From: Candidatus Nitrospira allomarina | Lineage (GTDB): Bacteria > Nitrospirota > Nitrospiria > Nitrospirales > UBA8639 | DNA length: 64,000 nucleotides | Reading direction: 5' to 3' | Assembly (NCBI RefSeq): GCF_032050975.1 | Contig: NZ_CP116967.1 | Location: 4,027,001 to 4,091,000, forward strand | Part shown: piece by piece, positions 14,201 to 43,867 of the stretch | Position numbering within the stretch: the stretch's first letter is position 1 | How the letters are laid out: each line of letters begins with the position of its first letter | Translations under genes and position numbers: made by a program | The notes under the pieces: model-generated | Databases searched by the model: none | What the model saw: only the letters and a program-made list of their open reading frames with translations | What the model was told of the DNA's origin: nothing

Positions 14201-17200
14201 GTGTTGACCGGCGCATCATTGACCGCCGTCATCGTCACCGTCGTGTCGTAGTTGGCACTGGTGCCCCCGCCCCCATCGGTCAAGACATAGCGCACCGTGC
14301 GGCTGCCCGGCGTGGGGTTGACCGTGTCGGTGTTCTCATAGGTAATGTTCTGGACGAGGGCGCTAACCGCCGCCGCATCGGCATTACTGTTGAGCGTAAT
14401 AATCAAGTCGGTGCCATTGCTGCCCCCGGTAAACGTGCCGATGGTCACGCCGGCATACGTCACCGTCGCCCCACTGACGCCAATTTGCCCCGCGCCCGCC
14501 CCCTGATCGCGGATCGCCAGCACATCCTCGGCCGCATCACTGCCCGCCGTAAAGCTCACCGTCAACGTCCCCGTGTCAAAGTCACTGCTGTCCACATCAC
14601 TCACCGCCGCATTGCTGCTCTGGTCAATGACTTGCGCGCCGTCGCCTTCGGTGTAGGCCAGCGTGTCGCCCCCTAAGTTGCTAATGACCGGGATGTCATT
14701 GACCGCCGCCATCGTCACCGTCGTGTCGTAGTTGGCACTCGTGCCCCCGTCCCCATCGGTCAAGACATAGCGCACCGTGCGGCTGCCCAAGGTCGGGTTA
14801 GCCGTGTCCGTGTTCTCATAGGTGATGTTCTGCACCAACGCACTCACCGCCGCGGCATCGGCGTTGGCATCGAGCGTGATGACCAGCGCGGCCCCGCCGC
14901 TGCCCCCCGTGAACGTGCCGATTTGCGTGCCCCCATAACTGACCGCACTGCCCGCCACGGTGATATTGCTGGGGCCCGCCCCCTGATCGCGGATCGCCAG
15001 CACATCCTCGGCCGCATCACTGCCCGCCGTAAAGCTCACCGTCAACGTCCCCGTGTCAAAGTCACTGCTGTCCACATCACTCACCGCCGCATTGCTGCTC
15101 TGGTCAATGACTTGCGCGCCGTCGCCTTCGGTGTAGGCCAGCGTGTCGCCCCCTAAGTTGCTAATGACCGGAGCATGGTTGGTCACGACGTTGGCGGAAA
15201 ACTCAGAGGTATTGTTTGACACATCGGTGGCCGTGGCCGTTAAGCGATCACCTGCGACAAGTAGGTTAGTCGAGAAGCTGATGCTGAACTGACGAGCGGC
15301 AGGGTCAAAATTGCCCGGTGTCGATCCGTTCATAATTCCGGTGTTTAGGTAGGTGTCACCTTCCCCATAGCCGCTCGCGTTGGGCGCCGCTTTAAAGAAC
15401 TCGACGGTCGAACCCGCCCCCGCCTCACCAGTGATCGTGACCGTCGTGCCCAAGACCTGCACGCTGTAGATCACCGGAAAATTCATCAGGTTATTGCCGC
15501 CGGTGTCGGCGTCGCCAGCATCATTGGGGGTCACGAAAGGCGCGGTGCCCAAGTCGCCCGGGTCGCCCGCCGTCAGAAGATCGATGCCAATCCCCCCTCC
15601 TGGGCCCGTCCCGTTGCCATAAATTGAGTTCTGCGTGATCAGATTGCCCGTTGAGGAACCCGAACGGATCATCACACCGGCACCGGCGTTACCGCTGCTG
15701 ATGTTCTTGCTGATCGTCAAGTTCGACGACCGGGCGCGGATGCCCGCGGACTCATTGCTCGCGCTGCCGTTGTTGCTGACCGTATTATTGTCTACCAGCG
15801 ATCCGGTAGCGGTGATCAGGTCCAAGCCGGGCCCCGCATTGGCGATAATCAGGTTGCCCTGGACTGTCAGCGCAAGACTGTTGCTATTGGCGGCGACCGC
15901 GTCGGCCCGCATGTTGCTGCTGCCAAAGGCGTTGCCGCGCAATTCGTTGCCCGTGATCAGCCAGTTGTTCGAACCACTGAGCAGGTTGATGCCGGACTCG
16001 GTCGCGAAACCGATCAGATTGTTGCGGATAATGCCAGTGTCGCCACCGGCCGAGTAGATGTTGGAGCCTTCGGTCTTGGCTCCCGGCGCCGGCGCATTGA
16101 AACTGGTCGCATCCGCGCCAATGATGTTGTTCTCGATCAACGCATTGTTCGCGGTGCTGCCGATGGTGATGTTGCCATTGCTCGAGTTGCTGCCGAAGCC
16201 GTAGATTGCCATGCCGCGGATCGTCACGTTGCTCACGTTGATGGCCAGACCGGTGGTAAGACCGCCGCCGTCAACGATCTCAATCTCCGGTCGCTCGACT
16301 TGCGACAACACCAGTGCATCGACCCCGACGGTGCCTCCGGCGCCGAGAAGCCCGGCATTGGTGTTGCCGATGTTGAGAGCCTGCGTGCTACCGTCCATCG
16401 TCAGCGCATCGGTGATTGCCGGCAGCAACGACATGACGTTGATCGTGAACACACCACGGCCCGCGCCATAGCCGGCATCGCCGGTAGCGATGGCAAAGAC
16501 GATACTGTCGGCGCCGGCTGTGCTGTTGGTAGCGGTTATGGCCTCGCGCAGACTGATGCGACCGTCGGCGCCGCGTGCGTTGCCCAGGTTGGTGATAGAG
16601 GTCGTGGTACCGTCGCTGACATCGCTGGTCGTGTCGACAACCACAATCCCCGTGGATGTCGCTGTGACGTTGGCCGCAAACTCGGAGGAATCCCCATAAC
16701 TGCCACCACCCAGATCACGGGTGGCCGTTGCCGTGACAAGGTCGCCCGCATTAATCCAGACGCCATTCAAGGTCATGTTGAAACTCGCATTGCCGGAACC
16801 ATCAGTGTTGACGGTCGTGAACCCCAGATACCGCTCTCCCTCTCCGTTGGGACTATCAGCAATGGAGGGCCGGTTCGCAAAGAATTCGATACGATAGGTG
16901 AGACTGGCATTCGTGTTGAGCGTGCCGACAATCGTCGTGCCGCTTGCATTTGAATTTGCTGACGTCACCACCGGGAAATTTTGAAGATTATTTGTCCCGC
17001 TATCCGGATCCCCTGTGTCGTTTGGGGTCACGCCGTCGTTTCTCAGATCAATACCGTTGCCGGCATTCGAAAATAATTGGTTCCCCAAAATGGCATTTCC
17101 GCTGCCGGCAGCTGTAAGGAGGCGCACACCGTCACCAAGGTTATAGCCAATGAGGTTGCCCGCGCCGGCGACGCTTCCACCGATCAGGTTCGTGGATGCT

Positions 17201-18870
17201 GAACTGTCCAACGAAATGCCCGCACCGTCGTTGCCAAGATTCGCAGTGCCGTTGATATCGGTACCGATCAGATTACCCTGAATGAGGTTCCCCGAGCCGG
17301 TAACATAGATACCTGCCGATGCTGCGGTATTGGTTGCGTTATTGCCGGAGATCAGGTTGCTATGGACAGCGGTTGTCCCTCCGATCGTCGTATTGGAGCC
17401 GTTGATGAGCACGCCCCTCCCGGAATTGCCCAAAGCGAGCGTACCGGTTACGTCCGTCCCAATATAATTTCCGATTACGACCGACCCGGAGGAGCCACTC
17501 CCGAAGTTAATGCCATCATCGTTATTACCGGAGATGATGTTCCGCTCCACCGCGATGAGACCACCAATGATCGCATTATGTCCGTCGTAATCAATGCCGT
17601 CATCGCCATTACCAAGGCTCACCGTTCCGGTCACATCGGTGCCGAGGTAGTTCCCGACGATAGTCACATTGTCGGCGTCAATGTTGAGTGCATCACCCCC
17701 GAAGCGGTTGATCACAAGTCCACGGATGGTACTGCCTGACCCCGTGGAGATCGTCAACCCATGTACCCCGCCACCCGCCGACGCCCCATTGAGTTCAATG
17801 ACCGGCGTCCCGGCGAAATCGGGTTCACTCCACCCGTCGATGAGCACAGCCTCGGTTATCGTAGGAAGGGCGGACAGAAGAGTGATCGTATGTGGGCCAG
17901 CACCCGCAATGTTGAACGTAATGGTATCTGCACCGGCATTGGCATTCGCATCAATGATGGCTTGCCGAAGGGAGTTCACTCCCGAATCATTGGTGTTGGT
18001 CACCGTATACGTCGCCAACACGCCTTCCCACGCGTCCTGGGTGGCCTGGCCGATCACGATGGACGACTCAATGAATCCGGTGGAAATTTCTAATTCCCAG
18101 TTGGCATATTCGCTGACGTGCCCGGTGCGGTCCGTGCTTGCCGCGATATCGGATCCGGTAAGGTCCGCTAACGTGTGAATGGCGGAGAGGCCGCTTACTC
18201 CACGACCAAAATTGCAGCCGTAGATCAACAGATCGGCGTCGACATCCAAACTCTGTCCGATTTGCTCAAACAGTTCGGCATAGTGACCGCTGATCGAATC
18301 ATTGGTGAGAAAGGCCGTGCCCAAATGCATCTCGGCCTCGGTGCCTTCCCCGATGAGATGAATGGCGTCGATCCCACTTCGTCCCTTGAGGGCTTCCGCA
18401 ATTTGTTCGATCCCATCCCGTCTCGCATCCAGGAGAATGACTTCCGCGGCCGGATCGATGCCTTCCATGAGCGTCTGGTAATTTTCAACACGCGTATCGA
18501 TGAAGACGATTTCTTTGCGGTGGGAAGACGCGAAGAGGGAAAGACCCGATGACCAAAGCGCATCATTCTGGGAAGAATCGTTGGTGGTGGAATCCGTACT
18601 GGTCTCCCCATTGCCTTCGGGAACGCCCGGTTGATCCTGTGTGGTGGTGTCTTGAACCACTTCCGCTCCCGTGGCGAGGGCGGCTCCATCAAACAGGATC
18701 CGTGGCTCCAAGGCAATACAGGTTCCGGTCAATCGGGGCGTGGGGGATTCTTGGGGTGCACGGGACTTCCGCTTCTTTCGGGCGCCGGGTTTCACCACCT
18801 TGCCGTCTTTCCCCGCTTGGAGTGTTGCGGGCTTACAGTGCAGGTGTGTCATGTGACGATTTTCAATCAT
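11254..18870 (-). CDS. Giant LEPR-XLL/DUF4347 surface protein 2 (2538 aa)
   Basis: This is a complete 2538-residue paralogue of giant protein 1. Order: Lys/Arg-rich N-terminus; [11 protein letters not shown] (about 53-63); DUF4347 (about 118-285); two right-handed beta-helix regions (about 290-640 and 740-1120) separated by VTATATRDLGGG-type linkers; three 160-residue units of the kind arrayed in protein 1 (about 1230, 1390 variant, 1805); two NTVPG-type Ig-like domains (about 1550 and 1970); a distinct beta domain (about 1660-1805); two cadherin-like repeats with VTSNGGG starts (about 2090-2300); a Pro-rich linker (about 2305-2335); a helical segment; and a hydrophobic module (about 2450-2488, ending LASLPAWRNFDP) followed by a charged tail. 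There is no Sec signal, and no RTX nonapeptides were seen. Likely a surface adhesin (inferred). The start at 18870 matches that of protein 1; no strong ribosome-binding site. Confidence 0.93.
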   Translation of the reverse strand: MIENRHMTHLHCKPATLQAGKDGKVVKPGARKKRKSRAPQESPTPRLTGTCIALEPRILFDGAALATGAEVVQDTTTQDQPGVPEGNGETSTDSTTNDSSQNDALWSSGLSLFASSHRKEIVFIDTRVENYQTLMEGIDPAAEVILLDARRDGIEQIAEALKGRSGIDAIHLIGEGTEAEMHLGTAFLTNDSISGHYAELFEQIGQSLDVDADLLIYGCNFGRGVSGLSAIHTLADLTGSDIAASTDRTGHVSEYANWELEISTGFIESSIVIGQATQDAWEGVLATYTVTNTNDSGVNSLRQAIIDANANAGADTITFNIAGAGPHTITLLSALPTITEAVLIDGWSEPDFAGTPVIELNGASAGGGVHGLTISTGSGSTIRGLVINRFGGDALNIDADNVTIVGNYLGTDVTGTVSLGNGDDGIDYDGHNAIIGGLIAVERNIISGNNDDGINFGSGSSGSVVIGNYIGTDVTGTLALGNSGRGVLINGSNTTIGGTTAVHSNLISGNNATNTAASAGIYVTGSGNLIQGNLIGTDINGTANLGNDGAGISLDSSASTNLIGGSVAGAGNLIGYNLGDGVRLLTAAGSGNAILGNQLFSNAGNGIDLRNDGVTPNDTGDPDSGTNNLQNFPVVTSANSNASGTTIVGTLNTNASLTYRIEFFANRPSIADSPNGEGERYLGFTTVNTDGSGNASFNMTLNGVWINAGDLVTATATRDLGGGSYGDSSEFAANVTATSTGIVVVDTTSDVSDGTTTSITNLGNARGADGRISLREAITATNSTAGADSIVFAIATGDAGYGAGRGVFTINVMSLLPAITDALTMDGSTQALNIGNTNAGLLGAGGTVGVDALVLSQVERPEIEIVDGGGLTTGLAINVSNVTIRGMAIYGFGSNSSNGNITIGSTANNALIENNIIGADATSFNAPAPGAKTEGSNIYSAGGDTGIIRNNLIGFATESGINLLSGSNNWLITGNELRGNAFGSSNMRADAVAANSNSLALTVQGNLIIANAGPGLDLITATGSLVDNNTVSNNGSASNESAGIRARSSNLTISKNISSGNAGAGVMIRSGSSTGNLITQNSIYGNGTGPGGGIGIDLLTAGDPGDLGTAPFVTPNDAGDADTGGNNLMNFPVIYSVQVLGTTVTITGEAGAGSTVEFFKAAPNASGYGEGDTYLNTGIMNGSTPGNFDPAARQFSISFSTNLLVAGDRLTATATDVSNNTSEFSANVVTNHAPVISNLGGDTLAYTEGDGAQVIDQSSNAAVSDVDSSDFDTGTLTVSFTAGSDAAEDVLAIRDQGAGPSNITVAGSAVSYGGTQIGTFTGGSGGAALVITLDANADAAAVSALVQNITYENTDTANPTLGSRTVRYVLTDGDGGTSANYDTTVTMAAVNDIPVISNLGGDTLAYTEGDGAQVIDQSSNAAVSDVDSSDFDTGTLTVSFTAGSDAAEDVLAIRDQGAGAGQIGVSGATVTYAGVTIGTFTGGSNGTDLIITLNSNADAAAVSALVQNITYENTDTVNPTPGSRTVRYVLTDGGGGTSANYDTTVTMTAVNDAPVNTVPGGQVVAEDTSIAITGISVNDTDGNLSTVQLSVTQGTVTVTLIGTATISAGANGSSTLTLSGSQTDLNATLASLSYQGNLNYVGADTLAVLSTDSNTATDSDNVGITVTQVNDAPVITASGGATSYTEQATATVIDGALTVTDPDGFDGADPSDQFTATVQVTGNYQASDILGFTNTAKIQGNLVGDLLTLSVIGGQTATIAEFQAALRSVTFYNGSDMPSELDRTISFSFDDGVDSSNVPTKIVQVTAVNDIPVISNLGGDTLAYTEGDGAQVIDQSSNAAVSDVDSSDFDTGTLTVSFTAGSDAAEDVLAIRDQGAGPSNITVAGSAVSYGGTQIGTFTGGSGGAALVITLDANADAAAVSALVQNITYENTDTANPTLGSRTVRYVLTDGDGGTSANYDTTVTLAAVNDAPVNTVPGAQLVAEDTALAISGLSVTDVDGNLSTVQLAVTQGTVTVTVSGAATISAGANGTNTLTLSGSEADINATLASLSYQGNPNYNGSDTMTVTSTDGNTATDVDMVGITVTAVNDAPVVTSNGGGPTASVNAVENQTYVTTVTATDVDVPADTLTYTIVGGADAARFSLHPTSGVLTFIIAPDFDVPGDVGANNVYDVVVQVNDGNGGVDTQAITVTVTDGNDAPVITSNGGGPSAVANAAENQTYVTTVTATDVDLPAETLTYSILGGADAALFRIDPISGVLTFTVPQDFETPADADGNNIYEVIVQVSDGNGGVDSQMIRVTVTNVQEGMAQAPPPRPDPTPMSSPNPRPIPEPVAETNSSTTDTPAVPFSSSFGGPSMAGRDLSSGPDSQLPRDWSRVLEVAPFLRAGESGTTSEQIRAYAPAPVLFSGIELGQEFLQQLNAFSDQLAEATQQTINERSFFVKMMEFTGLGVSGVLVAWLVRSGTLLASVLASLPAWRNFDPIAILDMDKQGRESWTKKMKEASQKEAGEHQGLDQMLDPEVGTSPMPSVSPRIRPSRSD
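12961..13450. repeat. Dispersed copy of the 480-bp unit inside giant gene 2
   Basis: Apart from a few substitutions (for example cccagcgtcgggtt for cccaaggtcgggtt), this stretch is the same 480-bp unit as the array at 1-5112. It is in the same coding frame relative to its gene. Confidence 0.9.
14216..15175. repeat. Two adjacent 480-bp units (one divergent, one array-identical) in giant gene 2
   Basis: The unit at about 14700-15175 appears identical to the giant gene 1 array consensus. The unit at about 14216-14700 is a mosaic: its first half (14216-14500) is diverged (protein GAGQIGVSGATVTYAGVTIG), while its second half is array-identical. This is the pattern expected from recombination or gene conversion between the two genes. 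Confidence 0.85.
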
Positions 18871-19025: not shown

Positions 19026-19193
19026 AATGTTGTGGCCGGTTATGTTACAGCTACGGAATGGAGTTGGACGTGATATCGAAGTAAAGAAGTTTTCAAATGT
19101 CGGGGAAGATGAAGGAACCGACCTCACACAAATAAAGTTGCAAGACGTCCTTACTCTATAGAAAGGATTTCCTATAATTGAAAGGAGTATGTC

Positions 19194-19886: not shown

Positions 19887-22016
19887 TCAGGCACCGCTTT
19901 CCCGAATGAGGATGGAGGCCACTCGCGTCCAGAGATGCCCCATCACACTTTGCCCATTGCCCTTCACATGGACCACCCCTCGCACCACCTGATCCCAGGA
20001 TGGATCCCTGTCCGTCACATCCAGTTCCACTCGGTACACGGAATGCTCGGGAATCAATCTGCCCCGCGCATCCTGGCGCACGGGCACACCACCGGAATAG
20101 GTCGAGGCTAAATACGGTAACGCCATTTCCGATTCGTCCACATGACGAAGGTCCCGAAGCTGACCCTGTCGGGCAGGTCGCATAGGGTCGTCCGGGAAAA
20201 ACCATCCTTCGTTCCCCACCGAGAGCCGGGCTTTTTCTTTTTCCGTGGCGAGGGCCAGCATCACGGATGGATGTTCCCCAATCACATGGGCCATCGCCAC
20301 GTCGGTATTCACCCACAGCCCTGGATGAAGTGATGATGCCAGATCCGTAATTTCGCCGGAGAACGGAGCACGCAAGATCAATTGCTCCCGGAGCGTAACC
20401 AGGCCGGCCAACGCCTTTCGTTCTCCCACCAACGTCTCCCAAATGACCAGATGATCATCCCGATCATCCTGATAGGCGACTTCTCGTTCTGCACGCAATT
20501 CTAACGCCGCAATGCGATGTCCAATAATGTCAATCTGATGTTCCACCTGTGGCGACTGTAAGATCAAAAGCGTTTGACCGTGTTCGACCCGATCTCCCTC
20601 CTCAACCAACACCTCCACCACCATTGCGGGAGCCGGTGGAAACAGAGTCGTGCGTTCCGGAGCCTCAAGGATCGCCGGAATCTCCACTGTCGTATCCAAA
20701 GGCATCACGCTCATCAGCAGACACCCCACCAGTGCGACTCCGATTACCCTCCCTCGCCAGGATTGGGTGACGGCCGCCCGACGTGTCCACCAGACCTGCA
20801 GTTCCTCATAGACCGGCCATGCCAGAAACCAGCCTATTTCTACGAGAAAGAGGATGACGCCCAAAACCTTGAAAAAAAAGTAATACACCAGGATCGCAAT
20901 GCCGACAAACACGACGGCCCGGTAGACCCACACCGCCCACGCATAGGCGATCAGCACCGATTGCCGTTGCGGGGGCATGTGTTCCGGAGGAGCATCTCCC
21001 CAGGCAAACAACCATTCCCGTAATTTCCAACGACCAAACCCGAAAGCCCGGGATTGCAAATTTGGAACACCCAGCCAATCGGAGAGTACGTAGTAGCCGT
21101 CAAACCGGAGCAAGGGATTCAAATTGATCAGCAGCCCCGTCACCCAACTGGTGGTCGCCAACACAAAGAGCATGCTTTTGACAATGCCATCAGGACAAAA
21201 GTTCCACAAAAAGGTTGCGATCATCGCCACACTGAGTTCCACCACCATTCCCGCAGCGGCAATGGCCGCGCGTTGCCTCCGGACCGTGAGCCGCCAGGAA
21301 TCGGTCGTGTCGGTATAGAGGACAGGCACCATAATGAGGAATCCGAGGCCCATCGTGGGGACCCGGCACCCGTATCGAACGGCGGTATAGGCATGCCCCA
21401 GTTCATGCAATATTTTAATGGCCACCAACCCGATGATATAACCGGTCATCCCTTGAAACGTGAAAAAGTATAAAAAGACATTGGCAAACGATTCCCACTG
21501 CCGCACGACTCCCATGCACCCGATCACACCCAGGATAACCACACACCATAAGGCCCAGCGACTAAACAGCGGAATAACGAACGGAAGCGTTGTTCGTAAG
21601 AATCTGTCGGGATTACAAAGGGGAATTCTGAAAAATAAATAGTTGTGGAGCACTCTCAGCAGCCAATGGTGTTTCGCCTGTTCGGCCTGTCCTAAGAATC
21701 CCTGACTTCCACCGGCTATGGAATCCCGGGTTAAATTGTTCCGATAGAGAAACTGGACCAACTCCATCACATTCCCGGTTGAGACCTTGGCCGAGGTGGT
21801 TCGGGTCACCAGATCCACCAGTCCCTTGGCCGTTCCCGCCTGCCAATGTGAAAGCAGTTGGAACGCGGACCATTCAATTTGGAAAAATTGATTTCGAACT
21901 GTGTCCACGATCGTCCAGGTAGGGACGCCATCGGGCGTGGGGGTACCGGGCAGGATCTGAAGATCTTCGCGCAAGGGTGGAAGGGAAACGTCTTCTTGAG
22001 GCTTTGGCTGGCCCAT
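19887..22016 (-). CDS. Site-2-protease (M50)-HlyD fusion, membrane protease/adaptor
   Basis: This encodes a 709-residue membrane protein. The N-terminal 100 residues resemble PqqD-like peptide-binding domains. Transmembrane helices follow around an HELGH zinc site (His204, Glu205, His208) and a second site, NLNPLLRFDGYYVLSD (Asp306), which together define M50/site-2 proteases. More helices lead to a C-terminal biotinyl-lipoyl/HlyD-like region (about 437-709) with the usual EEGDRVEHGQTLL half-motif. The catalytic residues look intact. It is the last gene of a minus-strand operon: its ATG directly follows the upstream stop (TAAATG). The fusion suggests an inner-membrane protease built into a TolC-HlyD conduit. 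The natural substrates may be the neighbouring giant proteins, which end in hydrophobic modules (inference). Confidence 0.85.
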   Translation of the reverse strand: MGQPKPQEDVSLPPLREDLQILPGTPTPDGVPTWTIVDTVRNQFFQIEWSAFQLLSHWQAGTAKGLVDLVTRTTSAKVSTGNVMELVQFLYRNNLTRDSIAGGSQGFLGQAEQAKHHWLLRVLHNYLFFRIPLCNPDRFLRTTLPFVIPLFSRWALWCVVILGVIGCMGVVRQWESFANVFLYFFTFQGMTGYIIGLVAIKILHELGHAYTAVRYGCRVPTMGLGFLIMVPVLYTDTTDSWRLTVRRQRAAIAAAGMVVELSVAMIATFLWNFCPDGIVKSMLFVLATTSWVTGLLINLNPLLRFDGYYVLSDWLGVPNLQSRAFGFGRWKLREWLFAWGDAPPEHMPPQRQSVLIAYAWAVWVYRAVVFVGIAILVYYFFFKVLGVILFLVEIGWFLAWPVYEELQVWWTRRAAVTQSWRGRVIGVALVGCLLMSVMPLDTTVEIPAILEAPERTTLFPPAPAMVVEVLVEEGDRVEHGQTLLILQSPQVEHQIDIIGHRIAALELRAEREVAYQDDRDDHLVIWETLVGERKALAGLVTLREQLILRAPFSGEITDLASSLHPGLWVNTDVAMAHVIGEHPSVMLALATEKEKARLSVGNEGWFFPDDPMRPARQGQLRDLRHVDESEMALPYLASTYSGGVPVRQDARGRLIPEHSVYRVELDVTDRDPSWDQVVRGVVHVKGNGQSVMGHLWTRVASILIRESGA

Positions 22017-23462
22017 TTAGAAACCTAACGTTTGTCGAAGAACTCCGAGGGGGCGCCGGAAGAGATGGAAAAAGAGGGTAACCGGTTCCCCATAGATTTT
22101 GGCGGTGCCTTGCCAGCCGATTCGAATATCTTCGGGCGGGTCCATGAACTCGGCTTCCACTCGATAGGCCAGGACATTGGTTGGGAGAATACTCGCATGA
22201 TAACTGGCATGGATTAATTGGGCAGGAATGGCTCGTAAGGGATTGGCATTCAAAAACACCTCGACTTCGGCGCCTTCCCGTAATACGATCGCGTCTTCTA
22301 CCGGTAGATCAATTTTCAATTCAAATTCCTGGGGATCGGCCACTTCCATAATGCGTTCCCCCACCGCCACCGGCTTGCCGATCCATTCGGATTTATCCGT
22401 GAAAATCACGATGCCTGACCGGGGAGCTTTGACCTCCACTTGCTGTAACATGTCCCAGGCGTAATCCCGTTCGGCTTCTTTCAGCCGGACTTCCGAGGCT
22501 TGCACGGGCATACCCGCACCGGTGTCATGGTCGACAAATGCACCCTGCGACACTTTGCGATACTCCATCCAGGTGACGGATAGATTCTTTTCCGCCACTT
22601 CAAATTGATTCCTGAATGTGGTGTCCTCATAACGAAAGAGGGTTTGCCCCTTCTGAACCAGGGTATTCGGGTGGACCAGGATTTCTCCCAGCACCCCATC
22701 CAATGGCGCCGTCACCACCGACGGATCCCGCGGCACCACTTCCACCGGAGCCAGCGTGGACAATCGAACGGGCAGCCACATGGCGGCTATCACGACTACC
22801 AGTACTCCCCATAGCCAGTTTTTGAGAACCTTCCAGTTTTTTACTCTCCGTTTCGTGCCCCCGAGCGCCTGCCAGGCATGAGCCACCGTTTCGGCAAACC
22901 GCCGGATCACTTGCACTTCTCCGTCTTGCCAAGGTACCTCCCTGGTCAACCACAAGCCACCAATCACCTGCTGATCCTGGCGGATTAATGGACACCAGAG
23001 GACACAGGGAAACGCAAAAGACTTCCAATCACGTTGGAGTTCTGCCGAACAATGAGAGGAGGAGAGAGGACCGGGATCTTTGAGGGTGCCTTGCTCCCAT
23101 AATTCTGAAATGATGCGTTCGATCCAAGTGATCATCGGCGCATTGCGGTCAACCACGGCCACACTGGACACCGCTTCCACCCTGCCCCGCATCCGCCCCT
23201 TCGGCGTGATGGAAAAAATACAGGCTTGTCGAAAGTCCACGAGACGCCGGGTCTCATTGGCCAGAAGAAAACAGAGTTCTTTGACCGTTTGAGCCTTGCG
23301 AACCTGACTTTCCAGTTGAAGAAGCGCCAGGAAAATATTTGAATCTTTTTCCGTTTTGACTTTGGACGCAATGGAAGGGGCGCCGGCCAGACCGGAGGAG
23401 GGTCTAAAGTCCTTCCCGGTCCCTCGCGAAGGGGACTCTGTTTGAGTTGCTGTTTGCACCAC
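22017..23462 (-). CDS. GAF-domain/HlyD fusion membrane adaptor
   Basis: Residue numbers here count from the longer TTG start at 23486. A Ser/Thr-rich N-terminus leads to a GAF-like domain (about 50-207), one transmembrane helix (about 224-242, WLWGVLVVVIAAMWLPV) and a HlyD-type periplasmic part. The latter has split lipoyl motifs (APLDGVLGEILVHPNTLVQKG and VKAPRSGIVIFTDKSEWIGK) and a beta-barrel region (LKIDLPVEDAIVLREG). By topology the GAF domain would be cytoplasmic and the adaptor periplasmic, so a small-molecule or redox signal could gate export. I prefer GTG 23462 because AGGAGG lies 9 nt upstream; the TTG at 23486 lies upstream of that site. It follows the HlyD gene closely and its stop abuts the protease start. 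Confidence 0.85.
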   Translation of the reverse strand: MVQTATQTESPSRGTGKDFRPSSGLAGAPSIASKVKTEKDSNIFLALLQLESQVRKAQTVKELCFLLANETRRLVDFRQACIFSITPKGRMRGRVEAVSSVAVVDRNAPMITWIERIISELWEQGTLKDPGPLSSSHCSAELQRDWKSFAFPCVLWCPLIRQDQQVIGGLWLTREVPWQDGEVQVIRRFAETVAHAWQALGGTKRRVKNWKVLKNWLWGVLVVVIAAMWLPVRLSTLAPVEVVPRDPSVVTAPLDGVLGEILVHPNTLVQKGQTLFRYEDTTFRNQFEVAEKNLSVTWMEYRKVSQGAFVDHDTGAGMPVQASEVRLKEAERDYAWDMLQQVEVKAPRSGIVIFTDKSEWIGKPVAVGERIMEVADPQEFELKIDLPVEDAIVLREGAEVEVFLNANPLRAIPAQLIHASYHASILPTNVLAYRVEAEFMDPPEDIRIGWQGTAKIYGEPVTLFFHLFRRPLGVLRQTLGF

Positions 23463-23510
23463 GCTCGTTTCCCTCCTGTGGATCAACAGAGAAGTCGATC
23501 CGGGAAGGAG

Positions 23511-24368
23511 TTAATGTTTGGCAGTCTGTTTACTCGTGGACGTCGGTGAGGCTGCAGGCTTCGTGCTTGGCGTAAATGTTGATTGAGTGGGAAACGTGCC
23601 TTCCGGAAATTTTGCACTTCCGCTCATACCCGCTAAGACACCTGTGGGATGTTTGTGAAATCGGCCAAAGACCCGAATGGTTTGACTTACAGGATCAACA
23701 CGAGGACCAATTTCCACCACTTCCGCCGAATAGTCCTTTTGCGTCTCATCGATGCTAAATGAAAACGGACTGTTCTTGGCGATCCACCGTAGCGAAGACG
23801 ACGGGAGAATCAATTCAATATCCAGATCCTGATTACTGACAATACTCACCAGATCATCGTACGGATTGACACTTTCATAGGGGTGGACCAACGTCTTGAC
23901 CACATGTCCGGCAAAAGGGGCAGGAATCCGGCAACCTTGAACAATCACTTGTGCTCTGGTGAGAACCGCCTGAGCCTTTTTTAATTCGGCCAGCGAAATG
24001 TCCACTTCCAACCGGCCGATCCCGTGAAGAGCGGCCAGCTCCTCGTTATTGATGACGGTCTTTTGCCTTGCATCCAAATCCGCTTGGGCGGCCGATAATT
24101 CCGCCCGGTATTTGGCACATTCAAATTCAACGAGGATATCTCCCATTTTAAATGCATCACCGTCTCGAAACGGCATCCGTTTCACTAACGCCTGGATTTC
24201 ACTGGCCAGCACCGCTTCAACGACGGGTTTCACGATCCCCCGAATCGTCTGAAGATCCGATGAGGGCATACTACTGCGTCCTCCGCTTTTTGCCAGACTG
24301 ACGCCTGAAGGCAGCATGATCAGACCCAGGGCTAAACACAGAATAGTGATAGGGTGTCGATGTATCAT
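23511..24368 (-). CDS. HlyD-family periplasmic adaptor protein
   Basis: This encodes 285 residues with an N-terminal signal sequence (ITILCLALGLIMLPSGVSLA). It has the membrane-fusion-protein layout: first lipoyl half (MPFRDGDAFKMGDILVEFEC), a short alpha-helical hairpin (about 90-140), second lipoyl half (CRIPAPFAGHVVKTLVHPYE), a beta-barrel, and a Ser/Thr/Pro-rich tail. Its ATG overlaps the stop of the TolC-like gene (ATGA, 24365-24368), so the two are translationally coupled. It would bridge the inner membrane to the TolC-like factor. RND-type and ABC-type adaptors look alike; neither an RND pump nor an ABC transporter is encoded nearby. Confidence 0.88.
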   Translation of the reverse strand: MIHRHPITILCLALGLIMLPSGVSLAKSGGRSSMPSSDLQTIRGIVKPVVEAVLASEIQALVKRMPFRDGDAFKMGDILVEFECAKYRAELSAAQADLDARQKTVINNEELAALHGIGRLEVDISLAELKKAQAVLTRAQVIVQGCRIPAPFAGHVVKTLVHPYESVNPYDDLVSIVSNQDLDIELILPSSSLRWIAKNSPFSFSIDETQKDYSAEVVEIGPRVDPVSQTIRVFGRFHKHPTGVLAGMSGSAKFPEGTFPTQSTFTPSTKPAASPTSTSKQTAKH

Positions 24369-26158
24369 GGGTTAACTCTTTCTTGGGGTTGAGTGGTTGT
24401 CTTTTGGGATTGCGCGATAGTGTTTTGAGGCTGGGCCTCAGGCTTTTGAGGTTGAACGCCAGTCTCTTGGAGTTGGGCCTCAGGTTCTTGAGATAGCGCG
24501 CCAGTCTCTTGGAGTCGGGCTTCAGATTCCTGAGATAGCGCATCCTCTTGGGATCGCCCGACCGTATCTAGGGGTTGAGGTTCGGCCCCTTGGGATTGAG
24601 TGGTTGGCGCTTGAGTTCGAGCGTCGGTTGAATGAACCTGCGCCAGGACCTCCGGGCGTTCCAGCCATTCCCAACGTTCTTGCAAGGCCACAGCCAATTC
24701 TTCGACCCCGTCTCCCGTGATGTCCGTGGGGAAGGGATCTTCTCCGATCGCGGCTAACACATTGGCATAGGCCATTTCCAATTTGGCCAATGCCGATTCA
24801 TACCGTAATTCAGCTACCAGACCTTGCATTTTTTCCCGGATGACCAGATGCTCACTGAGCCGGTTCAGGGACCAGGCACGTTGAACCTGATCGGCAATGG
24901 CCATTTGGGTCTCGAGGTAGCGCTTCCCGGTGGCCGCATCCTTCATGGCCGCATGATATTGCGCCACCGACACATGGACCTGACTCATCAAAGCCATCGT
25001 CAACGCCAGGCTTTGCATGTCCAACACCTTCTCCTGGGCGTCAATGACCTGCAAGCGGACGGGATGCCGGAATACATTCAACAGATTCCAGCTGACCTTG
25101 GCTCCGTAATTCAGCCAATTATTATGAAACAGAAAATTGTTGCTATCGTAATTGCCCCCCATATACACATTAAGGTTGGGGAGCAATTCCAGGATGGCGG
25201 CTTTGGTTTCCTTGGCGTTAATACGTTTTTGGTAGTCGACCTTTCGGAGTTCAGGACGATTCATGAGTGCCCGGTATTCCAAATCTTCCAGCTTCTCGGA
25301 GACCTTCGACACGAGGGGTGGATGTTCCGGCACCGCCAATTCATAGGGCTCACCGGGATCCAGGTTCATGAGTTCGGCGAGGTGAATCCTGGATAGCGAT
25401 AATTCCTGATACAGCTGTTGAATTTCACGTTGCGCGCTCAGAAGTTCTCGTTCATATTGTAGTGAAGTGAGTGGATCCGCCAAGGCCCGCTCCCGGATCA
25501 GATGAACTTCACCCAGCGCTTGCGTCACCCAATCCTGAAGAAACGCCAGGCGACCCAACGCCCGTTCCGCTCCCACGGCCTTCCAGAAGGCTGAACGGAC
25601 ATCCTGAATAACCCGATTGGCAATGCGACGCTTATCTTCTTCGGCAATAAGCACATCGTTAGCCGCTTGTTCCGCCCGGACATAAGACAGTCCGAAATCC
25701 AGCACATCCCAGCTTAGGGCTAAATTGGCCGTGTATATATTTTTGTCAGAAGACGTGGAAGACACGAGGGATTGTTGGCCTGTTTCTAATGACTGACTGC
25801 TCGCTCCCGCAAAGTTGCTGCGTCCATTATAGGCCGCATCAGCCACCACTTTCGGTAGCATGTCGTAATGCGCCAGATCCAGTTGGCGATGCGTGACCAT
25901 TTCCTTTAATCCCTGCACCCGCGTTTCCAGATTATATTTCAACGCCCGCGCCATTGCTTCAAAGAGCGTGATGGGACGAGCCACGGGTTCCTGATATTGC
26001 GTGAGTTGCGCCAGGTCCTCTTGGACCCGCTGTTGAATTTCTTCCTGAGTGAGTGGAGTGGGCATAACGGCACAGCCGGAGTCCAGCAGGACCAACCCGA
26101 TCACCACCACACCGATCGGAAATTTTGGAATGTGTAATGCCATAGTTAAAAAATGCAC
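24365..26158 (-). CDS. TolC-family outer-membrane lipoprotein with Gln-rich tail
   Basis: This encodes 597 residues. A signal sequence with a lipobox (VLLDSGCAV) is followed by two outer-membrane-efflux repeats of long amphipathic helices (about 60-270 and 290-490), the TolC fold. The last 100 residues are an unusual Gln/Glu/Pro-rich tail containing four 14-residue repeats. This is the first gene of the four-gene operon and probably forms the outer-membrane channel. The frame opens with GTG at 26158; ATG 26143 (MALHIPKFPIG) is an equally good start, and neither has a clear ribosome-binding site. Confidence 0.88.
   Translation of the reverse strand: MHFLTMALHIPKFPIGVVVIGLVLLDSGCAVMPTPLTQEEIQQRVQEDLAQLTQYQEPVARPITLFEAMARALKYNLETRVQGLKEMVTHRQLDLAHYDMLPKVVADAAYNGRSNFAGASSQSLETGQQSLVSSTSSDKNIYTANLALSWDVLDFGLSYVRAEQAANDVLIAEEDKRRIANRVIQDVRSAFWKAVGAERALGRLAFLQDWVTQALGEVHLIRERALADPLTSLQYERELLSAQREIQQLYQELSLSRIHLAELMNLDPGEPYELAVPEHPPLVSKVSEKLEDLEYRALMNRPELRKVDYQKRINAKETKAAILELLPNLNVYMGGNYDSNNFLFHNNWLNYGAKVSWNLLNVFRHPVRLQVIDAQEKVLDMQSLALTMALMSQVHVSVAQYHAAMKDAATGKRYLETQMAIADQVQRAWSLNRLSEHLVIREKMQGLVAELRYESALAKLEMAYANVLAAIGEDPFPTDITGDGVEELAVALQERWEWLERPEVLAQVHSTDARTQAPTTQSQGAEPQPLDTVGRSQEDALSQESEARLQETGALSQEPEAQLQETGVQPQKPEAQPQNTIAQSQKTTTQPQERVNP
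24371..24538. repeat. Four degenerate 42-bp repeats in the TolC-like gene
   Basis: The C-terminal tail is built of four 14-residue units: LSQESEARLQETGA, LSQEPEAQLQETGV, QPQKPEAQPQNTIA and QSQKTTTQPQERVN. At the DNA level these are 42-bp in-frame repeats that decay towards the stop. Confidence 0.8.
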
Positions 26159-26913: not shown

Positions 26914-29900
26914 ATGAAAACACTGTTAGCGCTTGAACCCAGAATCCTCTTTGATGGAGCCGCCCTTGCCACGGGAGCAGAAGTGGTTCAGGACACCACG
27001 ACCCAAGATCAACCTAATCCAGACGCCAATGCTGATGCGGAAAATAGTTCCGGCCAAAACATCGCCACCGATCATGACCCCGTCTGGTCCTCCGATCTCT
27101 CACCGGCCACTCCATCTGATCGTCGGGAAATTGTTTTCATCGATACCCGTGTCGAGGATTACCAGACGCTCATAGAAGGCATCGATCCGGCCGCGGAGGT
27201 TTTTCTCCTGGATGCGAGACGTGACGGAATCGAACAGATAGCGGAAGCCCTCAAGGACCGGAGGGATATCGACGCCATTCACCTTATTGGGGAAGGCACC
27301 GAGGCGGAGCTGCATGTGGGCTCGGCCTTTCTCACCAACGAATCAATATCCAATCAGTATGCCGAGCTGTTCACACAGATTGGGCAGAGTCTGTCTGCGG
27401 ACGCGGATCTCTTGATCTACGGCTGTAATTTTGGCCGTGGAGTAAGCGGCTTCTCCGCCATGCAAACCTTGGCCGAATTGACAGGGGCTGATATCGCGGC
27501 AAGCACGGACCGCACCGGACACGTCAGCGAATTTGCCAATTGGCACCTGGAAGTCTCCACCGGGTTTATTGAAACCTCGATCATCATTGGGCAGGCCACC
27601 CAGGATGCCTGGGAAGGAGTGTTGGCCACCTATACCGTCACGACGACCACAGATGGAGGTGCGGGGTCTCTCCGACAAGCCATCCTCAATGCCAATGCCA
27701 ATGCCGGCACCGATACCATCACCTTCGTCGGGTCCGGGACCTATCTGCTCACCCTCACCGGAACGGGCGAAAATGCTGCCGCCACAGGTGACCTGGATAT
27801 CACCGAAAGCCTCAACATTATTGGGAACGGTGCGGGTAGCACCATAATTGATGCCTCAGGTCTTGGAGCCACACCGGATCGGGTGTTCGACATACGGACC
27901 GGAATTACGACGATATCCGGAGTGACGATCAAGGGTGGATCTGGGACAACCGGGGCGGGCATTGAGACTCAGACAGGGACAACGCTGAATCTGATTGATG
28001 TCGAGCTTCGTGAAAACGTCTCCTCGAGTAACGGTGGTGCGATTTTCAATCGCGCGACGCTCAGCCTTGACCGCGTGACGATTGCCAATAATACGGCTTC
28101 CAGTAATGGTGGTGGCATTTATTTTTCAGGAGGTGGTAGTGGGACTCTTACGAACGTCACAATCAGCAGCAATAGCGCGGCTAACGCCGGAGGGCTCTAT
28201 AATTTCAACACAACTGTGACCATTCTCAACAGCACAATCGCCAACAACTCAACTGGCATCACACAGGTAGGGGGGGGTGCTATTACCCAACTGAAAAATT
28301 CGATTCTCGACAACGTGGGGGCGAACGCAAATACTCCTTTAACCTCCATGGGATTCAATATCGATAGTGATGGAACGGCAGGTTTTGGAGGTCCAGTTGA
28401 TCCCATGCTGGGAGCGTTAACTGACAACGGCGGTCCAACCAGAACACATGCCCTGCTGGCCGGAAGCCCTGCCATCGACGCGGGCACGGCAACCGGTGCA
28501 CCGGCCGTCGACCAGCGCGGCGTGACTCGCGACGCGAGCGTCGATATCGGCGCGTTTGAGTCGATTAGTAACACCCCGCCGGTGATCAATGACCAGGTTT
28601 TCCCGGTTACAGAAAACAGCGCAAACGGCACGAGTGTCGGAACCGTGGTGGGAACAGATGCGGATCCACAAAAGGGATACGGCAAACTCTATTGGGTGGA
28701 TCTTGATACCGACGAAGTGCGACGCATCAATCTGGATGGCAGCGGGAGCCAGCAACTGGCCGTGCAGTTCGACGGCACCGGCGCGACAGGACCACGCGGT
28801 GTCACGGTTGACGATGTGAACGGGAAAATCTATTGGACCAATAACACGACAAATTCCCTTTGGCGCGCCGATCTTGATGGCGGCAACCCGCAACAACTTC
28901 TGACCGGACTTAACGGCCCGCTAGGGATCGCCGTCGATCCGGCGGGTGGAAAAATCTATTGGGTCGATACCGCCGCGACGGCCATCTGGCAAGCCAATCT
29001 GGACGGCAGCAGTCCTGCGGCGTTGATCACCGGCATCACCAACAGCAAAGATCTCGCCGTCGATGTGGCCGGCGGAAAACTTTACTGGACCGACAAGGGA
29101 GCCGGTACCATTAAACGGGCGAATCTGAATGGAAGCACTATCGAGACAATCGTTAGCGGACTCAACGACCCGTGGGGCATCGCCCTCGATATTGGCGCAG
29201 GCAAGGTCTACTGGAGCGATGCCACGTTAAATGAAATACAACGCGCAGACATGATGGTCGGCGCAACCGCCCAAACCGTTGTCACCGGAGCGAACCAGCC
29301 GCGCGATCTGACGCTGGATTTGGTTCAGGGAAAAATCTACTGGACTGCCGCAACCACTGACCGAATCGAAAGTGCGACTTTAGCTGGATCGCCTCTACCG
29401 CCGGTGACACCCACCGGCAATTGGCCAAGCGGCCTGGCGATCGGGCCGGCAGTGCCCAATTTAACGTATGCCATCATCGGTGGTAACACCGGAGGCGCAT
29501 TTGCCATCAACTCGGTGAGTGGAGAACTCACGGTCGTGAATAGCGCCGCACTGGACTACGAAACCAATCCTTCCTTTGGTCTCACCGTTCAGCTCACCGA
29601 CAGCCTGGGGCTTAACGACACCGCGACCATCACCATCAACCTTGGAGGGGTCAACGAGGGTCCGGCATTCAGTGGTCTGGACAACACCCCCACCTTTACG
29701 GAAGGCGGCCCGGCGGTGGTTCTCGACAACAATGCCACGATCACCGATCCCGAACTGGATGCCGCCAATAACTATAACGGTGCGACGCTCACGCTGGTCC
29801 GAAACGGCGGGGCGAACCCGGACGACAGATTCGCCGGCAGCGGATCGCTGAGTGCCTTGACCGAGAGCGGAAATCTGGTGGTGGGCGGCACGACCATTGG

Positions 29901-32900
29901 GACGGTGACCACCAACAGTGGCGGCACACTGGTCCTGACCTTTAACAGCAATGCGACCACGGCCCGGGTCAACAGCGCCTTGCAGCAGATTACATACGCC
30001 AACAGCAGCGGCACCCCACCGGCCACCGTGCAGGTTGATTTTACGATTGACGACGGCAACGCCGGGGGCCAGGGCAGCGGTGGCGCGCTCAACGATACCG
30101 GATCGATCACCGTCACCATTGATCCCAATGCAACGCCCGTGGCAGCTCCCGACAGCTACACGATCGATGAAGACACTTCGCTGACAACTGAGCCGACCTG
30201 GTTTAACGAGGCGTGGCTCAGCAGACAGAAGTTGACGTTCAACAACACCGCTCAGGCCGAAAACTTAACGGATTTTCCGGTGCTGATCACCCTGAATGCC
30301 GGGAACATTGATTACACCAGGGTGCAGAACGCGGGGGAAGACCTCCGGTTTGTCGATCCTGATGGCACCGAGTTGGCCTACGAAATTGAAAGTTGGAATG
30401 AGTCGGGCACATCCTATGTCTGGGTCAAAGTGCCGCAAATCGATGCGTCGTCCGGCACGGATTACATCTGGATGTATTACGACAACGCCGGTGCCACCGA
30501 CAACCAAAACGCAGCGGGCGTGTGGTCCAATAATTTCGAGGCCCTCTCACATCTTCACAATGATTTCTTAGATTCAACCGGCAACGCCCACAATGGTATC
30601 AACAATGGCTCTTTGGACATCACCGGCACCATTGGTGACGGACAATCGTTCGACGGCGTCGATGACCGGATTGACATTCCGTCGGGTGCGGGCATCGACA
30701 ACCTCTTTACGGGTGGAGCTACGGTGTCCGCCTGGATCAACCCCAGCGGCTGGGGCGAGGGCGGCTTTGGCCGTATCCTGGATAAGGGTAATGCGGTCGC
30801 GGTCACTAACGGCTGGGCTCTCCAGGTAGAAAACACCGGCAATCGACTGATCTTTGAACTCGGATTTTCCGGCAACGCCGGACGGTGGCGGTCATCCATC
30901 AATTCCATTTCGCTGGATACATGGCAACTCGTCACGGTGGCCTATGATAGCAGTTCAGCGGCCAACGATCCGACGATCTACGTGAACGGCGTGGCCCTAG
31001 GGCTTACGGAATCGAGCACACCGAGCGGAACAGCCAATTCCGATGCCGGGCTTGATCTGTCTATCGGAAATCGATCGGGAGCAACGGACCGCACGTTCCA
31101 GGGAATATTGGACGAAACGCGGATTGAAACTGCGATACGTTCCGCCGATTGGATCAAAGCACAATATCTCTCGATGACCGATGCCTTCGTCACGTTCACG
31201 GCGGCGGAAGGTCCGGCCGGGGTGCTGGCCAATGACACCGACGCAGATGGTGATCCGTTGACGGCCATCCAGGTAAGCGCCGACCCCGCCAATGCCCAAT
31301 CCTTCACCTTCAATGCGGATGGATCTTTCTCCTACACGCCTGTGGCAAATTTCACCGGCGTCGACACCTTTACTTATAAAGTGAACGACGGCACCGTCGA
31401 CGGGAATACGGTCGTGGTCACGATTAACGTCACTCCCGTGAACGATGCTCCCCTTGTTGCCACCAACACGGGAACCACGGTGAGTGAAGCCTCCTCGGGC
31501 AATACCATCACCACGGCGATGCTCAACGAAGGAGATCCTGATGATGCCGGCACCGGTCTGACCTATACGGTGACCGCCGTCACGACCAACGGCACATTAC
31601 GACTCTCCGGCACCGCACTTGGCCTGAACGACACGTTCACACAGGACGACATCGATACCAATCGTGTGACCTACGACCACAATGGTAGTGAGACCACGAC
31701 CGACTCTTTCAGCTTCTCCCTGGCTGACGGCGGTGAGGACGGTGCCACACCTGCGACTGGGGTATTTTCCATCACGATCACTCCAGCAAACGACCAGCCG
31801 GTATTCAACGGTCTGGATAATACCCCGACCTTCACCGAGGGCGGCGCGGCGGTGGTGTTGGATGGCAACGCAACGATTGCGGACACGGAACTGGATGCGT
31901 TCAATAACTATAACGGCGCCACGCTCACATTGGTCCGCAACGGCGGCGCGAACGCGGACGACGTCTTCGCCGGAAGCGGCACATTGGGTACACTGACCGA
32001 CAGTGGGAGCCTGGTCGTCGCCGGCACCACCATCGGGACGGTCACCACCAATAGTGGCGGAACCCTCGTCTTGACCTTCAATGGGAATGCCACCACGGCC
32101 CGCGTCAATAGCACCCTACAGCAAATCACCTATGCCAACAGCAGCGGCGCGCCCCCCGCCACGGTCCAGATCGACTTCACGATCAACGACGGGAATGCCG
32201 GCAGCCAGGGTAGCGGCGGCGCGCTCAACGATACCGGCTCAATTACCGTCACCATCAATGCCAATAACTCCGCCCCTACCTTTAATGGATTGGACCAGAC
32301 CCCCACCTTCGTGCAAGGCGGCGGGGCCGTCGTGCTCGATAACAACGCCTCCATTACCGACCCCGAACTGGATGCCGCCAACAACTACAATGGTGCCACA
32401 CTGACTTTGGTTCGCAATGGCGGGGCCAACGCCGAGGACCTATTCAACCGCAGCGGCACGCTCAATCCACTGGTGGAAAGCGGGAACCTGGTGGTGAGCG
32501 GCACCACCATTGGGACGGTCACCACCAACAGCGGAGGCGCGCTCGTCTTAACCTTCAATAGCAACGCCACCACGGCCCGGGTCAACAGTACTCTGCAACA
32601 AATCACCTATGCCAATAGCAGCGGCACGCCTCCCGCCACGGTCCAGATCGATTTCACCATAGACGATGGCAACGCGGGCAGCCAGGGTAGCGGCGGGGCC
32701 CTCAACGATACCGGCTCCATCACGGTCACCATCAATGCGACCAACATTCCTCCCGTGGCCGTGGCCGATAGCTTTACCGTCACTCAAGGCTCGACCACGA
32801 TCCTGAACCTGGCAGGGAATGACCTCGATGCGGATGACGGCCTCGATCTGACCAGTATCACCATCATTTCCGGGCCCACCAACGGCACCATCGCCAGCAT

Positions 32901-34839
32901 TAATACCGATGGGACCGTGACGTACACGCACAATGGGTCAGCCACGATCACGGACAGTTTTACCTACACCATCAATGATTTGGCCGCCGCCACCTCGAAC
33001 ACCGTCACCGTGAGCCTGGTGGTGAATCTGCTGAACGTGCCACCCGTCGCTCTGGCCGATAGCTTTACCGTCAACGAAGGTTCGACCAACACCTTGAATC
33101 TTGCCGGAAATGATCTCGATGTCGATGACGGCCTGGACCTGACGAGCATCACCATTGTCGCCGGACCTACCAATGGTACCATCGCCAGCATTAATCCCGA
33201 TGGGACGGTCACGTACAGGCACAATGGGTCAGAAACCCTCAGCGACAGTTTCACGTACACGATCCGGGATCAGAGCGGCGCGACGTCCAACACCGTGACT
33301 GTGAGCCTGAATGTGACGCCGATCAATAATTCGCCGACACTCAGAAACGTGCCGGTAGCGCTGAATCCGGGAACCGAAGATAGCGGTCCGCCGGTGGGAG
33401 CCGTCGGTACGCTGGTTTCAAGCCTGGTGGATTTGGATACGATACCCGGCGGACACGACAACGTCACCGATCCGGATCCCGGCGCACTAACAGGAATGGC
33501 CGTGACTCAGGTCGACGAAGCGAATGGCGCGTGGTTCTACAGTACGGATAACGGGGCAAACTGGTTAGCTTTGAGCGGAGTCAATCCCAACGCGGCGCGT
33601 CTGTTAGCCGCCGATGGGGTAACCCGTCTCTATTTTCAGCCGAATCCGGACTATTTTGGAACGGTAACCTCTGGGATCAGATTTCGCGCGTGGGATCAGG
33701 TTAATGGGAGCAACGGGGCAATTGGCGTTACAACCCCGCCAGGGGGCACGTCAGGATTCAGTCCAGCACAGGTCACCGCCGCTATCACGATCAATCCTGT
33801 TGGCGATGCCCCTATCATCACCTCGAATGGAGGTGGCCCCACCGCTAATGTGACCGTTCTTGAGGGGAGCACGGTGGTGACCGATGTGAATGCCAGCGAT
33901 GCCGACGGGGATCTTCTGACCTATAGCATTATTGGTGGAGCCGATGCGACGCTCTTTCGCATTGATCCAACAACCGGTATCCTCACTTTCATCACGGCGC
34001 CGGACTTCCGAACCCCGGGCGATGTGGGAGCCGACAATGTCTATGACGTGATCGTCCAGGCCTCCGACGGGACCTCCGTCGATACACAGGCCATTGCCAT
34101 CACCGTCACGAACGTCCCACCAACCCAATTTACCCCGCCTCCGGCGTCCTCTCCTACGCCCACACCGGATCCCCCGCCGAGAGAATCCGGCGAAGACACC
34201 ACGGAAAACCAGGTGCCGGTCAATGGGGGCAGTCTTGATCCCAGCTCGCCAGGAACTGTACCTGAAGGCGGCCAGGGCTTAACCACCAATGGCCCCAGAG
34301 ATTCGGACACGGGGATTACTCTGGGACAACACGATTTGTCCGCTAAGCAAGTGGAGGGAGAACGGACCGGTACCGGAGAGATGTTGATTGACATAATAGG
34401 GTTCCTCCAGAAGCCCTTTGACATCACAGCTCTGAAGAGTGAAATCCGGTCATTGTTGCACCGATCAGGATTCCTTCAGGACCTGGATCGCGTCCGCGAC
34501 GAGGTAGAGGATGTCTCGGCCACCGAAAAAACCTATGTGGCCTCCAGCATTGCCGTGTCCACCGGGCTGTCGATCGGTTATGTCGTCTGGCTCCTTCGCA
34601 GTGGGGTGCTGTTGACCGCCCTGCTCTCCTCTGTACCTGCCTGGCAGTTTGTGAATCCACTGTTGGTGCTCGATTCGGCTGCAAGAAAGAAGCGGCAAAA
34701 GGGTCGTAAGGATGTGAAAGACGATTCGGTTGAGTTCCTGTTCGAGAAATCCGCAGCGTCTACCGGGATAGGTGAGGAGAAAACCGTGGACCGCGCCAGG
34801 CATCCTCGAGCCCGGTGGTTCCAGCGAAACAGACCATAA
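26914..34839 (+). CDS. Giant LEPR-XLL/DUF4347 surface protein 3 (2641 aa)
   Basis: The ATG at 26914 gives [18 protein letters not shown] directly, without the basic extension of proteins 1 and 2. Order: DUF4347 (about 71-245), beta-helix (about 250-550), a cadherin-like domain interrupted by a six-blade YWTD propeller (about 588-848; six GK[LIV]YW motifs), a TPTFTEGG domain (about 925-1072), a tandem-95 domain interrupted by DUF2341 plus LamG (about 1093-1409), two more TPTFTEGG-type domains (about 1628-1942), two [11 protein letters not shown]-type domains (about 1945-2135), a distinct beta domain, a cadherin repeat (about 2305-2400), a Pro-rich linker and the hydrophobic C-terminal module ([20 protein letters not shown]) with a basic tail. 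No Sec signal and no RTX repeats. Presumed surface adhesin. The propeller and LamG modules suggest ligand or glycan binding (inferred). Confidence 0.93.
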
Positions 34840-43802: not shown

Positions 43803-43804
43803 AG

Positions 43805-43831: not shown

Positions 43832-43867
43832 GATCCCCCGGCTCACCTTCCAGCTCAATAAATGCCA

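Follow-up and report, generated by a model that had tools for sequence, protein, structure and literature searches.

A TolC/HlyD/GAF-HlyD/M50-HlyD operon of Candidatus Nitrospira allomarina as a candidate ABC-independent exporter for LEPR-XLL-tagged giant proteins

An operon flanked by four giant genes

The window analysed here is a stretch of 64,000 nucleotides from the genome of Candidatus Nitrospira allomarina (contig NZ_CP116967.1, positions 4,027,001 to 4,091,000). It harbours four packed genes on the minus strand (19887-26158), encoding a TolC-family outer-membrane factor, a periplasmic adaptor (HlyD), an adaptor with a GAF-like part (GAF-HlyD) and an adaptor fused to an M50 protease (M50-HlyD) (Table 1). 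The open reading frames (ORFs) are located as given in a preliminary description of this DNA, and the junctions reported there were also found. The TolC and HlyD genes overlap by 4 bases (ATGA), a gap of 24 bases separates HlyD from GAF-HlyD, and GAF-HlyD and M50-HlyD meet as TAA-ATG. Two giant genes lie on either side of the operon, again in agreement with that description, and all four encode proteins with a DUF4347 domain. No other DUF4347 proteins were found in the 4.55-Mb single-contig genome. In a genome search all four giants reached the threshold (17 bits) of the NCBIfam model LEPR-XLL (NF012209), a family whose name assigns no function, with scores of 17.1-18.8 bits. LEPR-XLL/DUF4347 proteins are among the largest in bacteria and no export route has been assigned to them in the literature searched. 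The present work ties the LEPR-XLL family to M50-HlyD exporters.

The Peptidase_M50 match in M50-HlyD is above the Pfam cut-off. Furthermore, Pfam searches identified HlyD_3 in GAF-HlyD, HlyD_3/HlyD_D23 in HlyD and OEP (PF02321, 94.3 bits) in the TolC protein. The weakest assignment is the GAF domain of GAF-HlyD, with an E-value of 0.0035, which is under the Pfam cut-off.

Distribution of the operon and the LEPR-XLL tag

A scan of 84,980 species genomes yielded at least 563 relatives, 80 of which were kept. Gene content was counted at the 63 relative loci with enough upstream DNA; GAF-HlyD was present at 62 of these, HlyD at 58 and TolC at 50. The same gene order was found in Proteobacteria, Desulfobacterota-type genomes and Nitrospirota. 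On plasmids of Azospirillum, E. coli, Kosakonia, Burkholderia anthina and Variovorax the order is giant, TolC, HlyD, GAF-HlyD, M50-HlyD. In E. coli the operon was found in 24 of 5426 complete genomes, and 21 of its 25 places are on plasmids. Open frames of up to 13,078 amino acids occur among the giants of relatives.

Chance-level co-occurrence was a finding that, according to the preliminary description, would speak against its proposal; instead, presence of M50-HlyD coincides with presence of DUF4347. Among 246 Nitrospirota genomes, DUF4347 was found in 35 of the 36 with window-type M50-HlyD and in 3 of the 210 others (Fisher 8e-38). Among 296 genomes of the order of Pectobacterium these numbers were 21 of 23 and 18 of 273 (Fisher 2e-19). 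Presence and absence of the two also agree within several genera; in g5, g6 and g9, for example, some genomes carry both and others carry neither. DUF4347 was found in 44 of the 48 genomes behind the loci of the relatives. Of the Nitrospirota genomes that carry window-type M50-HlyD, only that of locus L110 (G167) lacks DUF4347, and no LEPR motif was seen there within the 20 kb fetched.

The giants share a short motif, LExRxx[FYLM][DS][AG], which is the NCBIfam LEPR-XLL motif. It lies ahead of DUF4347 in all 57 DUF4347 proteins that adjoin M50-HlyD, whereas 16 of 17 DUF4347 proteins from genomes without M50-HlyD lack it. The lone tagged control (L238, G458) is a DUF4347 frame of 595 amino acids, which may be broken, in a genome without a full-length M50-HlyD. 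The tagged proteins beside M50-HlyD show little hydrophobic N-terminal sequence and no N-terminus resembling a Sec signal, while most DUF4347 proteins from genomes without M50-HlyD have signal-peptide-like N-termini. DUF4347 itself was rejected as the invariant partner, since tagged giants without DUF4347 exist, as do untagged DUF4347 proteins without the exporter. Indeed, exporter genomes lacking DUF4347 (G420, Serratia G272, Pantoea G273 and Micavibrio G269) keep a tagged giant by the operon; in Micavibrio the tag reads LEKR. Judged from these sequences, the constant partner of M50-HlyD is therefore the LEPR-XLL tag and not DUF4347.

At the other end, proteobacterial giants have a C-terminal motif, [FL]xxQ[LV], in common. 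In the form [FL]xx[QE][LVIFM] (second position restricted) it was found in the last 60 residues of 30 of the 37 proteobacterial giants that end next to the operon, against 4.2 +/- 1.8 in shuffled sequences. In the Nitrospirales giants a comparable stretch, FLQQL/FLQDL, precedes a hydrophobic hairpin and a charged tail. This hairpin was considered as a general signal and rejected, being present in Nitrospirales and absent from the proteobacterial giants. The hairpins also bear on a reading in which the giants get to the surface in some other way and M50-HlyD and GAF-HlyD control their release or retention, as LapD/LapG do for LapA. The GAF-like domain would suit such regulated proteolysis or anchoring, as would the histidine kinase and GGDEF-EAL response regulator adjoining giant D. 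It is nevertheless unlikely, as proteobacterial giants without a hairpin have kept the operon, and as tagged giants, lacking a Sec-signal-like N-terminus, would still need some other export route.

Several observations on the giants stand apart from these counts. A Variovorax giant of ~16,000 amino acids lies directly upstream of the operon (L074 1-13742; record CP063167.1 19413-68132). GAF-HlyD and M50-HlyD are also carried by Pelagibacteraceae and other uncultured Alphaproteobacteria with genomes of ~0.8-1.4 Mb (L156, L161, L173, L176, L179, L180, L183, L186). HlyD is present at most of these eight loci and a DUF4347 giant wherever one was searched for, which is a large load for genomes of this size. 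Most DUF4347 relatives display an SHG...YGC pattern like that of caspase-type (clan CD) proteases, with the second His in 63 and the Cys in 77 of 78 sequences. The window giants have Glu instead of this second His (HLIGEGTE), and because of this replacement their DUF4347 domains may be inactive. A PDB sequence search with DUF4347 returned no relative.

The M50-HlyD protein and the search for a pump

The AlphaFold2 (AF2) model of whole M50-HlyD has a mean confidence score (pLDDT) of 88 and several predicted membrane helices. Structure comparison related residues 440-686 to MacA (Z 16.4) and residues 184-315, part of the membrane domain, to RseP (Z 11.0). The hallmarks of site-2 proteases, HExxH and a third zinc ligand, the Asp of an NPxxRFDG motif, were found and are (nearly) invariant in 49 relatives. 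H203, E204, H207 and D305 are the same in all 49. This invariance of the HExxH and Asp ligands in the alignment argues that catalysis by M50-HlyD matters.

The N-terminal 99 residues, folded alone, gave a pLDDT of 92.9 and a model with the three-strand, three-helix winged fold of the recognition element (RRE) of ribosomally synthesized and post-translationally modified peptides (RiPPs). The closest structures were a lasso peptide B1 protein with leader (6jx3, Z 9.5) and PqqD (5sxy, Z 8.3). In Foldseek the domain matched TbiB1 with leader peptide at a probability of 1.00, with other RRE proteins ranking lower. A PDB sequence search with the domain gave nothing useful. Because Foldseek E-values (best 0.03) and Pfam PqqD matches (see below) are weak, the predicted RRE-like, leader-peptide-binding fold is an assignment at the level of the fold.

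The RRE-like fold also raises the idea of a RiPP-like machine that exports a short peptide, in which case the giants would lie beside the operon by coincidence. Residues 104-394 of M50-HlyD share M50 domain similarity with daptide/epipeptide maturation proteases (NF041824, NF058609). The match to the daptide protease model is partial, does not reach the HlyD part and, at 153.8 bits, is far under the equivalog cut-off of 300. Flanking ORFs were clustered by single linkage using those of 100 amino acids or more; no recurrent short precursor gene was found among these clustered ORFs, shorter ones being left unclustered. Furthermore, the conserved leader-like tag sits on the giants themselves. A short-peptide exporter is thus very improbable.

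No ABC (ATP-binding cassette) or RND (resistance-nodulation-division) protein is encoded by the main ORFs of the window, as stated in the preliminary description. It had named a dedicated ABC transporter elsewhere in the genome as a finding that would speak against its proposal. In the complete genome no dedicated ABC transporter of a type I secretion system (T1SS) was found, and this candidate was rejected. PF00664 matches only three ABC proteins, all MsbA-like half transporters, one of which adjoins an LpxB-like frame, and no HlyD or TolC was found within the 20 kb fetched around each. A secondary SecA was likewise looked for and rejected, the single SecA_DEAD protein of the genome having canonical length. 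Across the relatives, a T1SS-type ABC transporter was present at 1 of the 63 loci and SecA beside the operon at none. No extra conserved motor gene was found beside the operon either among the clustered flanking ORFs of 100 amino acids or more; in Proteobacteria these clusters were mainly antisense shadow frames and generic superfamilies.

These data also bear on ordinary type I secretion with an ABC transporter encoded elsewhere, in which an MsbA-like or MacB-like protein is recruited to the adaptors and TolC. The MacA-like fold of the adaptor domains fits this idea, and the genome offers the MsbA-like proteins as well as five MacB_PCD matches. However, an ABC transporter does not travel with the module, as the count over the loci shows, and the three PF00664 proteins have no linked adaptor or channel. 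At six annotated plasmid loci no ABC gene lies within the operon. Only that of Phyllobacterium, with GAF-HlyD and M50-HlyD, has a separate T1SS with its ABC transporter, ~5 kb away. Recruitment of such a transporter is quite improbable.

Co-occurrence and genome search thus support one part of the preliminary proposal, an ABC-less trans-envelope set inherited with the LEPR-XLL/DUF4347 giants. The other part was the suggestion that the intramembrane protease may stand in for the ATPase or complement it. Conservation of the protease site and the RRE-like N-terminal fold point instead to leader recognition and processing, and a role of the protease as motor finds no support here.

Proposed export route and relation to known systems

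It is proposed, with moderate confidence, that the operon encodes a dedicated ABC-independent trans-envelope exporter for giant proteins, in which the N-terminal LEPR-XLL tag replaces a Sec signal peptide. This model is based on association, homology and predicted folds; the link to export is strong but genomic. The cytoplasmic RRE-like domain of M50-HlyD would bind the LEPR leader of a giant, as its fold and the association with the tag suggest. The chain would then cross the inner membrane at a complex of M50-HlyD and GAF-HlyD. The M50 zinc site, with its invariant catalytic residues, would cut the leader and free the chain, and in Nitrospirales it may also cut the C-terminal hydrophobic hairpin. 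Passage to the surface would follow via the HlyD adaptors and TolC, by homology to adaptor/TolC conduits. More speculatively, the GAF part might gate activity on a cytoplasmic signal. In this model the module itself does not encode a motor.

Several points weigh against this model. The LEPR leaders of the giants are barely at the NCBIfam cut-off, and hmmscan of N-terminal pieces gave 15.8-17.6 bits. Pfam PqqD matches to the N-terminal domain reached an E-value of 0.0056 at best, in 4 of 34 members and not in the window protein. The MacB_PCD proteins, none of them linked to the operon, belong with MacB-type permeases that could in principle energise the conduit. Related genomes were counted in the co-occurrence analysis, so that its p-values treat the genomes as more independent than they are. 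The two motif patterns were drawn up once the sequences had been seen; for the tag, it is the contrast with the controls that carries weight.

The literature on LEPR-XLL, DUF4347 and M50-HlyD export yielded only one paper of 2015 and passing mentions. That paper described a locus of secondary SecA_DEAD, HlyD, M50 and GAF proteins, whose substrate was then unknown, and suggested M50 as a possible pore-former (Kamneva et al. 2015; PMC4452313). Like the window, such loci combine GAF-HlyD, M50-HlyD and HlyD, sometimes with OEP, and have no ABC transporter. Unlike them, the window type has no secondary SecA, neither beside the operon nor in this genome. Loci of the 2015 type are present in Nitrospirota (L095-L105), partly in the same genomes. 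Their M50-HlyD proteins form a second class, 25-29% identical to that of the window and with a similar RRE-like N-terminus, and the tags end in LLSA instead of the FDA/FDG of the window type. In eight of these SecA-type loci that were checked, a LEPR-XLL match lies 3-15 kb from the M50 gene. Over Nitrospirota, the LEPR-XLL model had matches in 29 of the 42 genomes that carry an M50-HlyD of one class or the other and in 3 of the 204 that carry none (frames of at least 300 amino acids scoring at least 17 bits, plus frames of tagged giants slightly below). The window type, which is widespread and lacks SecA, is a sister of these loci. The idea is thus not wholly new; what is new is the proposed link to LEPR-XLL substrates, a class that the 2015 paper did not propose, together with the RRE-like domain of M50-HlyD.

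The pore-former suggestion, combined with the idea of the preliminary description that the protease may take the place of the ATPase, would make the M50 membrane domain the inner-membrane channel, driven by proton-motive force, with the protease fold replacing the pump. A module without an ATPase and the several predicted membrane helices of M50-HlyD are in line with this. Its invariant zinc ligands argue for catalysis, and the sister systems add SecA. To our knowledge, no site-2 protease acts as a polypeptide channel, and this reading is rather unlikely. For the exporter model favoured here, housekeeping SecA/SecYEG or proton-motive force is a more likely source of energy than an ABC transporter encoded away from the operon, given that the sister systems come with a SecA of their own.

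The window system resembles type I secretion (HlyB-HlyD-TolC) in its HlyD-type adaptors and TolC-type channel. Its proposed substrates are likewise giant and repetitive and lack a signal-like N-terminus, and their conserved C-terminal motif may correspond to the C-terminal signal of type I substrates. It differs in having no ABC ATPase, in its N-terminal tag and in its three adaptors, of which two carry additional cytoplasmic or membrane domains. The predicted fold of the M50-HlyD N-terminal domain is shared with RiPP leader binders (PqqD, lasso B1, TbiB1). Unlike in these, the domain forms one protein with a protease and an export adaptor, and giants rather than short peptides are proposed as its substrates. 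Tentatively, the SecA-bearing and SecA-less versions could together form a separate secretion class, with ABC-free, RRE-guided export of LEPR giants and cleavage of the leader by an adaptor-fused intramembrane metalloprotease. If the exporter model is true, the LEPR tag, so far without a function, would mark an unstudied export machine, and a RiPP-type recognition domain would serve export of giant proteins. This machine would occur in nitrifiers, root-associated bacteria, Pelagibacteraceae and E. coli, and would be testable in tractable hosts.

Table 1 Features of the operon and the flanking giants (window positions)
Feature	Position	Strand	Basis
M50-HlyD, 709 amino acids: N-terminal RRE-like domain, intramembrane M50 protease, C-terminal periplasmic adaptor	19887..22016	-	Pfam, AF2, fold matches
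RRE/PqqD-like domain of M50-HlyD, model residues 10-97	21723..21986	-	AF2 and structure matches
HELGH zinc site of M50 protease	21393..21407	-	residue conservation
Periplasmic adaptor (HlyD/MacA-like) domain of M50-HlyD	19929..20699	-	fold match
GAF-HlyD (start codon uncertain): GAF-like part in the cytoplasm, a single membrane helix, HlyD part in the periplasm	22017..23486	-	
HlyD adaptor with N-terminal signal-like segment	23511..24368	-	
Outer-membrane factor of the TolC family (OEP) with lipoprotein-like N-terminus and Q-rich C-tail	24365..26158	-	
Giant A: LEPR-XLL, DUF4347, repeats; frame of 4832 amino acids, extends beyond window	2..9685	-	
LEPR-XLL tag, giant A	9488..9529	-	NF012209, 17.5 bits (cut-off 17)
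DUF4347, giant A	8831-9325		
Giant B: LEPR-XLL, DUF4347, cadherin-like repeats, C-terminal hydrophobic hairpin	11254..18870	-	
LEPR-XLL tag, giant B	18673..18714	-	NF012209, 17.1 bits
DUF4347, giant B	18016-18510		
Hydrophobic core of C-terminal hairpin, giant B	11461..11517	-	
Giant C: LEPR-XLL, DUF4347, repeats, C-terminal hydrophobic hairpin	26914..34839	+	
LEPR-XLL tag, giant C	26923..26970	+	NF012209, 18.8 bits
DUF4347, giant C	27130-27624		
Hydrophobic core of C-terminal hairpin, giant C	34573..34629	+	
Giant D: LEPR-XLL, DUF4347, repeats, C-terminal hydrophobic hairpin	35323..41265	+	
LEPR-XLL tag, giant D	35428..35475	+	NF012209, 18.6 bits
DUF4347, giant D	35641-36135		
Hydrophobic core of C-terminal hairpin, giant D	40999..41055	+	

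Two further neighbours were observed in the window. Between giant B and M50-HlyD (19178-19686), short frames resemble what is left of an antitoxin and of a VapC-like toxin with a PIN domain, their translation being judged by eye. At 41262-45870, a hybrid histidine kinase gene shares 4 bases with the end of giant D, and behind it lies a response regulator gene whose product has GGDEF and EAL domains. This arrangement suggests control of giant D by cyclic-di-GMP.

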